Under the pieces are notes generated by a model. That model made no database searches and was not told where the DNA came from. It was given only the letters and a program-made list of their open reading frames with translations. A stretch of 11,118 nt of DNA from Candidatus Zixiibacteriota bacterium (GTDB lineage: Bacteria > SM23-81), in the NCBI GenBank assembly GCA_030628225.1, contig DAOVRJ010000059.1:1-11118 (forward strand). Direction: 5' to 3'. Shown here piece by piece: positions 8,334 through 11,118 of this stretch. Both the position numbers and the translations under genes were made by a program. The number at the start of each line of letters is the position of its first letter. Position 1 is the first letter of the stretch.

Positions 8334-8885
8334 GTGAGAAGATGGTTTGTATTCTCCGTGATCCTTTTGGCGATGAGTGGGCTGTATTCAACGGCCCTGG
8401 CTCGTCCCATCGGTGTGGGAGTTCTTGCCGGTGCGAACATCCCCATTGTCCAGGATGACGCCGGCAGCGGGTTTCTTTACGGGGCAAAATTGAGAATAGG
8501 CGCGACTCCTTTTCTTGCCGTAGAGCCCACATTGACCTTTTTTGAGCAGGGCGATGTCGCCGTCGAGGTGGGGAGGGAGGAAGCTGATCTGGATGGGGGT
8601 AAATCCACCGCTCTGGGCATCAACCTGATCATCGGCTCCGTGGGTCCGCCGGCCGGTCTGCGATTCCATGGCATCGTCGGTTTTGCCAGCCACGCCATGA
8701 AGCAGGAGGGCACTGAGGACGAGAGCCGGTTCGCCCTGACTTTCGGGCCGGGTTTGGAAGTTCAGGTGGGCGAGAAGTTAGCCCTGGATTTTGAGGTTCT
8801 TCTGCACATGATCAGTTTTGCAGATGGAGGGGCGCGCAAGAACCTGGGTTTATCCGGCGGGCTGATCTATTATGTGGGCAATTGA
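8334..8885 (+). CDS. Small secreted protein, predicted outer-membrane beta-barrel
   Basis: The 183-aa product begins with a clear signal peptide: MRRW, a hydrophobic core FVFSVILLAMSGLY, and a probable signal peptidase I site after ALA at residue 23. The mature part of about 160 aa is made of alternating hydrophobic/polar stretches rich in Gly (IGVGVLAG, LYGAKLRIGATPFLAVEPTLTFF, TALGINLIIGS, GLRFHGIVGFASHA, RFALTFGPGLEVQVG, LALDFEVLLHMISF, LGLSGGLIYYVG). It ends in an aromatic-rich strand. This fits an eight-stranded OmpA/OmpW-like barrel or a general porin-family membrane protein. No catalytic motif is visible. GTG 8334 has a strong AAGGAGG six nt upstream, and the gene starts only 15 nt behind ahcY, so cotranscription is likely. 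The exact family and cargo are unknown; the barrel call rests on residue pattern alone. Confidence 0.75.
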   Translation: MRRWFVFSVILLAMSGLYSTALARPIGVGVLAGANIPIVQDDAGSGFLYGAKLRIGATPFLAVEPTLTFFEQGDVAVEVGREEADLDGGKSTALGINLIIGSVGPPAGLRFHGIVGFASHAMKQEGTEDESRFALTFGPGLEVQVGEKLALDFEVLLHMISFADGGARKNLGLSGGLIYYVGN

Positions 8886-9499: not shown

Positions 9500-9666
9500 G
9501 TTGCAAAATGCCATGTCTTCTGGCAAAATCGGGTTTTTGGAGGCCTTCGTTGATCGTATGCGGTTTTTAAGTTGTTCGGCCCGAAAGCAGCTCAAATGGC
9601 CGTTTTTAAGAAAACTGCCCTGGTGATGAAGGCGCACACGTTATTGTTGTGGTGGTTTGGCTGCGC
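9500..9666 (+). promoter_or_regulatory. Gene-free stretch with GG-T5 direct repeats upstream of the sigma-54 promoter
   Basis: No gene is seen. A direct repeat GCGGTTTTTAAG (9560-9571) and GCCGTTTTTAAG (9599-9610) matches at 11 of 12 positions with a 39-bp step. A looser relative, GGGTTTTTGG, lies at 9531-9540. The two close copies end about 60-100 bp upstream of the sigma-54 promoter, the usual range for enhancer-binding-protein sites. A binding role is inference only. Confidence 0.3.
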
Positions 9667-9683
9667 TGGCATGGTCCTTGCTT
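9667..9683 (+). promoter_or_regulatory. Sigma-54 (RpoN) -24/-12 promoter
   Basis: The sequence TGGCATGGTCCTTGCTT matches the consensus TGGCACG-N4-TTGCW except for one base. The diagnostic GG (9668-9669) and GC (9680-9681) are separated by exactly ten nt. It points toward the secreted-protein gene at 10002, and the predicted start is near 9693. Sigma-54 promoters need an ATP-dependent enhancer-binding activator; none is encoded in the window. Confidence 0.75.
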
Positions 9684-9687
9684 CAAA

Positions 9688-9715
9688 GTGCACAGATTCC
9701 TTTGACCTGTGCCAC
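9688..9715. promoter_or_regulatory. Imperfect inverted repeat over the predicted sigma-54 start site
   Basis: GTGCACAG (9688-9695) faces CTGTGCCAC (9707-9715) across 11 nt; the two arms pair fully apart from one extra C. It covers the predicted sigma-54 start and lies 32 bp upstream of the -35 box of the next promoter. It could be an operator, or a small hairpin in the first nucleotides of the sigma-54 transcript. Confidence 0.4.
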
Positions 9716-9747
9716 ACAAAAAAATTGTCTGTGATTCAAAAAAAGTC

Positions 9748-9776
9748 TTGACAAATTTCCCTGCATATGATAAAAT
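9748..9776 (+). promoter_or_regulatory. Housekeeping (sigma-70-type) promoter
   Basis: The -35 box TTGACA (9748-9753) is perfect, the spacer is the optimal 17 nt, and the -10 box TAAAAT (9771-9776) differs from TATAAT at one base. An A-rich tract at 9718-9744 could act as an UP element. The predicted start is near 9783, giving a leader of about 220 nt before the gene at 10002. Confidence 0.85.
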
Positions 9777-9782
9777 GGTCTT

Positions 9783-10001
9783 AAGAAGGTGAAGGTATTT
9801 AAAAAGAGAGATATATTTCCGCAGGGAGGTGGTGTCTGTAAGTCCGTGTCTTTTAATGCATTTTAATCCGTTTAATACATTTTGTTTCGGTTGTTAAATT
9901 GCTCACCTTAAAAGAGATCTGAAAGGAGGTGGAAAGGCGGGAAAGTTATTATCCCGTTGTAGCTGTTGATGCTGAGTGTCCACGCTTAAGGAGGTTCGAT
10001 A
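9783..10001 (+). promoter_or_regulatory. Long 5' leader with phased T-rich repeats and several SD-like blocks
   Basis: No known riboswitch was recognised. Units TTTTAATGCA, TTTTAATCC and GTTTAATACA follow each other from 9851 in steps of 9-10 nt; TTTAATGCATTTT (9852-9864) and TTTAATACATTTT (9871-9883) match at 12 of 13. CACCTT (9904-9909) can pair with GAGGTG (9926-9931), covering a perfect AAGGAGGT block (9923-9930) that has no start codon at usable distance. CGGGA (9938-9942) and TCCCG (9952-9956) form a second weak hairpin. The working ribosome binding site is AAGGAGG at 9988-9994, seven nt before ATG 10002. Confidence 0.5.
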
Positions 10002-11118
10002 ATGGTAAGAAAAGTATTGTTTGCGATTTTAATCGGCGTTATCCTGACCAGCGGGTGGGCTTACGCCACTGTCTGTGATAAAGAAGAGGCTAAATCTGAA
10101 AACCGCTATGTCATCACGGCGAAAGTGGTGGATGAGACCTATGGTGTCAGGGATAACGAAGTACACCAGTTCGATGCCCAAAGGACTCCCTGGGTCAGGC
10201 ATGGTTCCAAGGCCGTGGTTTTTGACACCATCGCCTGGTTTAGCGCTGAGGGTCCCAGTTGGAACGATGAAGTGATGGTTACGCCCTGGGATAAGATAGA
10301 CGCCACGGATATCCCCAGCACCTGGCATGTTGACGACTTCAAAGTCTGCAGTGACGACAGCGCTTGGTGGTCTGGCGATCCCAGCATAGGCTCCCAGGGT
10401 GGATACTTGGACGACTGGTGGCAGCAGCTGGACACTCCGGCCATAGTTGATATAAGCGACAGCACGTTCCTGATTTACGATCAGTGGCTGAAGTGTGAGC
10501 CCGGCGAGGGCTCAGACCATGGCTGGGATGGCTACCAGGTGCGGGTGTCCACCGACTACCCCGGTTTCGCCGACAGCACTTACCTCGAGATTAAGCCTTA
10601 CAAGGTGGCCGATGACAGCTCCTACTATACGCATGCCCAGAACGGTGAGTGGGACAGCCTGTATGCTATGGGCTACCATGGGTCAACCGGTGGCGGTTTT
10701 GGCACTCCCGATGAACTTGCTTGCTCGGGGAAGATATTTGATCTCCGCGGTTTAGAGGGCGACACCATCTCGGTGCGCTTCATCTTTGCCTCCGACCCGG
10801 CATACAATACTTTGGACGCGGACTCCCTGTTCGGCCTGATTCTGGATGACATCCTGGTGGTGGAGGGGATGGACTCCTTGACTCTGGCCACTCTGCCGGA
10901 GCCTCTGGGAGGAGACACTCTGTTCTTCGAGGATGGCGAGAGCCTGCCGCACCAGATGATCCCCTCTATTCCCCTAGCCACGGGAAGCTGGTGGTGGCTG
11001 GCCTTTGGTGGATATACCGGCGCATATAAGGCCATGGATTCCGACAGTATGACCAGCCGGTACGTACCCGACATGGAGGACATGCTGGTCTCGCCCAAGA
11101 TCGCCAAGGCCGATTTGG
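10002..11118 (+). CDS. Large secreted beta-sandwich protein, 3' end beyond the window
   Basis: The frame from ATG 10002 stays open to the window edge, giving 372 visible residues. Residues 1-22 are a classical signal peptide (MVRKVLFAILIGVILTSG, cleavage after AYA), so the protein is exported. The mature part is rich in Trp, Asp, Tyr and Gly. Region about 72-286 reads as one jelly-roll/MAM-like unit: FDTIAWF, STWHVDDF, WWSGD, YLDDWWQQLDTPAI, FLIYDQWLKCEPG, WDGYQVRVSTD, ISVRFIFASD, FGLILDDILVVEG. A second unit starts at about 305 with LFFEDGE and continues through WWWLAFGGYTGAY to DMLVSPKI. Such units occur in immune-inhibitor-A (M6) peptidases and in choice-of-anchor proteins of environmental bacteria. 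No protease motif (HExxH) is seen in the visible part. It could be a cell-surface adhesin, a protease accessory region or an enzyme carrier. The strong SD and two upstream promoters argue that it is a real, regulated gene. Confidence 0.88.
   Translation, partial: MVRKVLFAILIGVILTSGWAYATVCDKEEAKSENRYVITAKVVDETYGVRDNEVHQFDAQRTPWVRHGSKAVVFDTIAWFSAEGPSWNDEVMVTPWDKIDATDIPSTWHVDDFKVCSDDSAWWSGDPSIGSQGGYLDDWWQQLDTPAIVDISDSTFLIYDQWLKCEPGEGSDHGWDGYQVRVSTDYPGFADSTYLEIKPYKVADDSSYYTHAQNGEWDSLYAMGYHGSTGGGFGTPDELACSGKIFDLRGLEGDTISVRFIFASDPAYNTLDADSLFGLILDDILVVEGMDSLTLATLPEPLGGDTLFFEDGESLPHQMIPSIPLATGSWWWLAFGGYTGAYKAMDSDSMTSRYVPDMEDMLVSPKIAKADL

Follow-up and report, generated by a model that had tools for sequence, protein, structure and literature searches.

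The exported-protein gene at position 10002 is most probably preceded by a compound regulatory region, in which predicted sigma-54 and sigma-70 promoters both read into a leader and the gene itself, and a set of exported proteins in the phylum appears to share this layout. Because the pair is kept before other exported-protein genes in related genera, the stacked promoters are probably a real regulatory layout. Dual sigma-54/sigma-70 control had been put forward in an earlier note on this DNA. As a promoter architecture the idea is strongly supported by sequence, given the conservation of both elements, the presence of rpoN and of sigma-54 activators, and the recurrence of the pair; the parts that we infer are its operation in vivo, the additive logic and the choice of activator. 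The components are known elsewhere; the novelty lies in their pairing, which an uncultured phylum has conserved in front of exported-protein genes.

The stretch of DNA analysed (the window, 11,118 nucleotides) is the entire contig C146 of a metagenome-assembled genome of 2.34 Mb, designated G000. It was compared with three further genomes of the phylum: G001, the sole genome of the same family in the comparison and a member of a different genus, and G002 and G003, which represent a second family. Sequence of G000 outside the window was drawn on as targeted stretches and as 20 contigs sampled at random.

Genes of the window and the exported protein

Genes resembling dprA, ptsI, S-adenosylmethionine synthetase and SAH hydrolase are found in the window, together with a gene for a beta-barrel outer-membrane protein at position 8334 and a lipoprotein-like gene at 8872. 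These are followed by an intergenic region of 530 bp and then by the gene at 10002 (10002-11118, plus strand), which is cut by the contig end after 372 visible amino acids and is preceded by the ribosome binding site TAAGGAGG (9987-9994, plus strand). Its product begins with a clear signal peptide, MVRKVLFAILIGVILTSGWAYA, and both promoters thus precede an exported-protein gene, as had been claimed. One good relative was found in G001, an ortholog of 920 amino acids (46% identity, E 9.5e-72) that has the same upstream neighbours as the window gene. Neither a PEP-CTERM C-terminus, sought at the end of this ortholog since the window gene itself is cut, nor the T9SS sorting domain PF18962/TIGR04183 was present in the full-length G001 protein. 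The jelly-roll fold suggested earlier was not confirmed: searches with Pfam and NCBIfam profiles gave no match to the window protein, and a single-sequence structure model was unusable (pLDDT 31).

Two promoter elements are conserved in another genus

The sigma-54 -24/-12 element TGGCATGGTCCTTGCT lies at 9667-9682 on the plus strand, with GG at 9668-9669 and GC at 9680-9681 separated by N10, and its predicted start is near 9693. It fits TGGCAYRN4TTGCW, with one mismatch to TGGCACGN4TTGCW and none to TGGCAYGN4TTGCW. Downstream on the same strand are a sigma-70 -35 element, TTGACA (9748-9753), and an extended -10 element, TAAAAT with TG (9771-9776), separated by a spacer of 17 nt; this promoter scores 11/12, and its start is predicted near 9783. 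The description in the earlier note, of a near-consensus element with an exact GG-N10-GC followed about 80 bp later by a perfect -35, a 17-nt spacing and a one-off -10, therefore holds in full. Judged within the window, neither element stands out. Two sigma-54 matches with at most two mismatches were found where 1.6 were expected, and the sigma-70 promoter is the best among four matches where shuffling expects 5.6. Since the sigma-54 match equals chance expectation in 11 kb, the case for it rests on comparison.

Alignment of the window and G001 upstream regions on the sigma-54 site gave three shared blocks: TGGCATGGTCCTTGCT at 0, identical at 16 of 16 positions, CTTGACAAATT at +80, and the 12-mer TGATAAAATGGT, which contains the -10 element, at +101. 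The -35 element is in register, 81 nt from the start of the sigma-54 site in both genomes, and there is no net indel across about 120 bp of diverged DNA. The shared word observed was of length 16, while words of at least 14 arose in only 2 of 500 shuffles, whose maximum was 14. Because both elements occur in register at the ortholog from a different genus, they exceed chance, and the retention of the sigma-54 16-mer and of the -35/-10 at identical spacing indicates that two separate elements are conserved across genera. The remaining upstream DNA showed background similarity apart from the A-tracts before the -35. Upstream of the sigma-54 site the sole word common to the two genomes was the 8-mer TTGCAAAA, at about -165, which is at chance level.

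Two A7 tracts, about two helical turns apart, lie between the promoters on the plus strand. The first (9718-9724) has a counterpart at nearly the same place in G001, and the second (9738-9744), which is UP-element-like and just 5' of the -35, is in register there. An inverted repeat, GCACAG-N11-CTGTGC (9690-9712), also lies between the promoters and may be an operator or a hairpin; it is not conserved in G001.

Based on this arrangement, RpoN holoenzyme would wait at 9667-9682 until fired by an activator, an enhancer-binding protein bound upstream, and transcription would then start at about 9693. The strong housekeeping sigma-70 promoter, some 90 bp downstream with a start at about 9783, would provide standing expression, to which the sigma-54 start would add a second, longer transcript when the activator is on. 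Both transcripts would read through a long leader into the exported-protein gene at 10002.

The tandem layout recurs before exported-protein genes

Tandem arrangements were defined by a sigma-70 promoter scoring at least 10/12 that lies 40-160 bp downstream of an intergenic sigma-54 site on the same strand. Five of the 27 intergenic sites in G000 had such a promoter, compared to none with the promoter upstream and none with it on the opposite strand. The genes were the window gene (spacing +81), an M14 carboxypeptidase on C9 (+86), a T9SS-tail protein on C195 in which the sorting domain PF18962/TIGR04183 was found (+81), a gene on C205 (+99) and a subtilase on C255 (+110). Across the four genomes, the pattern TGGCN7TTGCN{50,80}TTGACA gave ten matches, a few of them unconvincing (L179, L183), and its reverse gave none.

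Three G000/G001 orthologous pairs retained both promoters as conserved blocks, namely the window gene, the C195/C10 T9SS-tail protein and the C9/C91 M14 carboxypeptidase, and an A-tract precedes the -35 in all three. A fourth case came from the second family, where an orthologous exported protein of 175 amino acids in G002 and G003 is preceded by identical sigma-54 16-mers and a weaker -10.

The constant spacing in the three orthologous pairs (73-86 bp), together with the absence of a net indel in the window pair and the phased A-tracts between the promoters, would also suit a sigma-54 holoenzyme site whose main role is to tune the sigma-70 promoter, through interference, read-through or A-tract bending, and which is not an independent promoter. 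We regard this as improbable, in that two other tandem genes have a spacing of 99-110 bp, several sigma-54 sites lack any sigma-70 partner, and no known system of such a type was found in the papers searched. A related and bolder proposal is that of a phylum-wide class of compound promoters, with the sigma-54 site at a near-fixed 73-86 bp before an A-tract sigma-70 promoter, a functional spacing and a coordinated set of exported products (peptidases, T9SS-tail and PEP-CTERM proteins); we offer it tentatively and consider it rather unlikely. If fixed spacing does matter, these genes would offer a well-defined case in nature of a constitutive promoter linked to one that depends on an activator.

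Very little probability attaches to the reading in which the sigma-70 promoter alone works and the resemblance of the upstream sequence to a sigma-54 site is accidental. That promoter does look sufficient by itself, and the sigma-54 match is within chance when only the window is considered. In addition, a perfect TTGACA-17-TANNNT promoter with no sigma-54 site ahead of it is located 60-244 nt upstream of about 10 of 34 T9SS-tail genes (loci L229-L268), compared to 5 of 79 random genes, which mostly have poorer -10s; secretion cargo thus seems to have unusually strong promoters. Against a chance match stand the full identity of the sigma-54 element in the other genus amid diverged DNA and its retention in two further orthologous pairs and in the second family. 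The compound region with two promoters is the preferred reading. It does not amount to a general rule for secretion cargo: sigma-54 control of T9SS cargo at large was considered and rejected because good sites precede only about 3 of the 34 T9SS-tail genes.

Sigma-54 machinery and predicted sites across the genome

The gene rpoN, whose absence the earlier note had named as fatal to its proposal, was looked for and found in G000 (PF04552, E 3.4e-61, in a 466-aa frame). The enhancer-binding proteins that the same note had suggested looking for are also encoded, with eight strong matches to the sigma-54 activator domain PF00158. The genome was scanned, as had likewise been suggested, for TGGCAYGN4TTGCW with up to one mismatch, with the reversed pattern as control. 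G000 had an excess of matches (50 vs 22 reversed), and the other three genomes gave 55 vs 23, 55 vs 6 and 19 vs 7. Exported proteins were enriched among genes with a site in promoter position, at 14 of 18 compared to 25 of 79 in a random background drawn from 20 contigs of G000 and including operon-internal genes (Fisher P = 4e-4); signal peptides were called with a simple home-made script that is approximate and was applied alike to both gene sets. The reversed-pattern control gave three sites in promoter position, one of them before an exported-protein gene.

Four of the eight activator genes (on C4, C34, C81 and C232) have a sigma-54 site about 2 kb or less downstream. By eye, the repeats upstream of the sites at the Hsp20 gene (G000 and G001) and at the C4 exported-protein gene are alike in both genera, as would be expected for activator sites.

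Sites were also found upstream of Hsp20 genes in G000, G001 and G002 (L005, L150, L074), with an activator gene adjoining in G000 (C81:3349). A small heat-shock protein would not ordinarily be expected to depend on sigma-54. In both G000 and G001 a site precedes the gene for a protein with the sequence MTIxxPLFGxRVSPRFDCAP (L063, L151), adjoined in G000 by an activator gene (C232:2424); we take this protein to be a candidate member of the dinitrogenase-cofactor family.

The exported proteins preceded by sigma-54 sites include PEP-CTERM proteins on C47, C169 and C278, proteases of the M14, C25 and S8 families, a lamin-tail protein, a lipoprotein and T9SS-tail proteins. The genome encodes an exosortase (PF09721, E 5.8e-75) and PrsR (TIGR02915, 579.9 bits; curated cut-off 502.6), and the large membrane-protein gene upstream of the PrsR gene is, by its position only, a candidate for PrsK. 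PrsR, the exosortase and PEP-CTERM genes preceded by sigma-54 sites thus occur outside the Proteobacteria (L375 3231-4598, on C205; L369, at C173:6340; L015, L028, L068).

Conservation by itself does not name the binder, and the conserved TGGCA-N6-TTGC element could be bound by a regulator other than RpoN, but there is scant probability of this, as each of the eight tandem sites agrees with the sigma-54 consensus at GG, GC and TT, and the motif is also found next to activator genes, upstream of Hsp20 in three genomes, and upstream of PEP-CTERM genes, an association published for sigma-54 (PMC1569441).

Relation to known sigma-54 systems

Sigma-54/PrsR promoters of PEP-CTERM genes have been described as a motif pair in Proteobacteria only, in which motif 1, with TTTACA at its end, is located 32-92 nt upstream of the sigma-54 motif (Haft et al. 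2006, PMC1569441), and RpoN dependence was tested for one PEP-CTERM gene (Xia et al. 2023, PMC9850573). G000 resembles that system in having -24/-12 elements before exported-protein genes, along with an exosortase, PrsR and sigma-54 sites at three PEP-CTERM genes. It differs in that the host belongs to an uncultured phylum and not to the Proteobacteria, the ortholog of the window gene lacks a PEP-CTERM end, and a sigma-70 promoter follows. In addition, a PrsR box was sought by eye in the 170 nt before the window sigma-54 site and no TTTACA was found. Elsewhere in the phylum motif 1 resembles, by eye, ATAACA or ATTACA and not TTTACA.

Pairs of sigma-70 and sigma-54 promoters in tandem are classical. 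According to PMC9731577, which cites Reitzer and Magasanik 1985, glnA of Escherichia coli is expressed from a sigma-70 promoter, glnAp1, and a sigma-54 promoter, glnAp2, giving basal plus induced expression. Both there and at 10002 a sigma-70 and a sigma-54 promoter serve one gene, but the order is reversed, with the sigma-54 promoter proximal at glnA, and the genes differ. NtrC has an additional role at glnA, as a repressor of the sigma-70 promoters.

The role of sigma-54 in controlling the exterior of the bacterial cell, a known theme, has also been surveyed (Francke et al. 2011, PMC3162934). The targets found here likewise concern the cell exterior. The emphasis of that survey is on how exopolysaccharide, LPS, lipoprotein and flagella are synthesized and transported, whereas the targets in the present case are exported proteins as such, proteases and T9SS-tail proteins among them. 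Publications already describe control by sigma-54 both of exported PEP-CTERM proteins (PMC1569441, PMC9850573) and, in general, of the cell exterior (PMC3162934), and for this reason the earlier note's hint that such control is not obvious went too far.

These observations provide evidence at the sequence level for RpoN control of exported proteins in an uncultured phylum with both T9SS tails and exosortase/PEP-CTERM sorting. They suggest that PrsR/sigma-54 control of PEP-CTERM genes extends beyond the Proteobacteria, and they offer concrete conserved promoters for testing.

A conserved element in the leader

The leader of the window gene contains a Shine-Dalgarno-like element, TCTGAAAGGAGGTGGAA (9918-9934, plus strand), some 80 nt upstream of the start codon, and an exact 17-nt match to it is present in the leader of the G001 ortholog. 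Its offset from the sigma-54 site differs between the two genomes (+251 and +342). A short leader peptide at TCTGAAAGGAGGTGGAA was considered and rejected, as a start codon at proper spacing is absent, and an Rfam scan of the window leader gave no match. The element resembles the STAB-SD of Bacillus; action together with RNase J was unsupported, since RNase J was absent above the cut-off in the four genomes.

The Shine-Dalgarno-like sequence GAAAGGAGGTG was observed 75-103 nt before the start codon, likewise without a properly spaced start codon of its own, at the window locus 9918-9934, at L046 (1416-1432) and at L057, L378, L070, L232, L239 and L249. Among exported-protein genes, every occurrence of the leader element coincided with a perfect TTGACA sigma-70 promoter (4/13 vs 0/55, P = 9e-4), and it was also present at three non-exported genes of the background.
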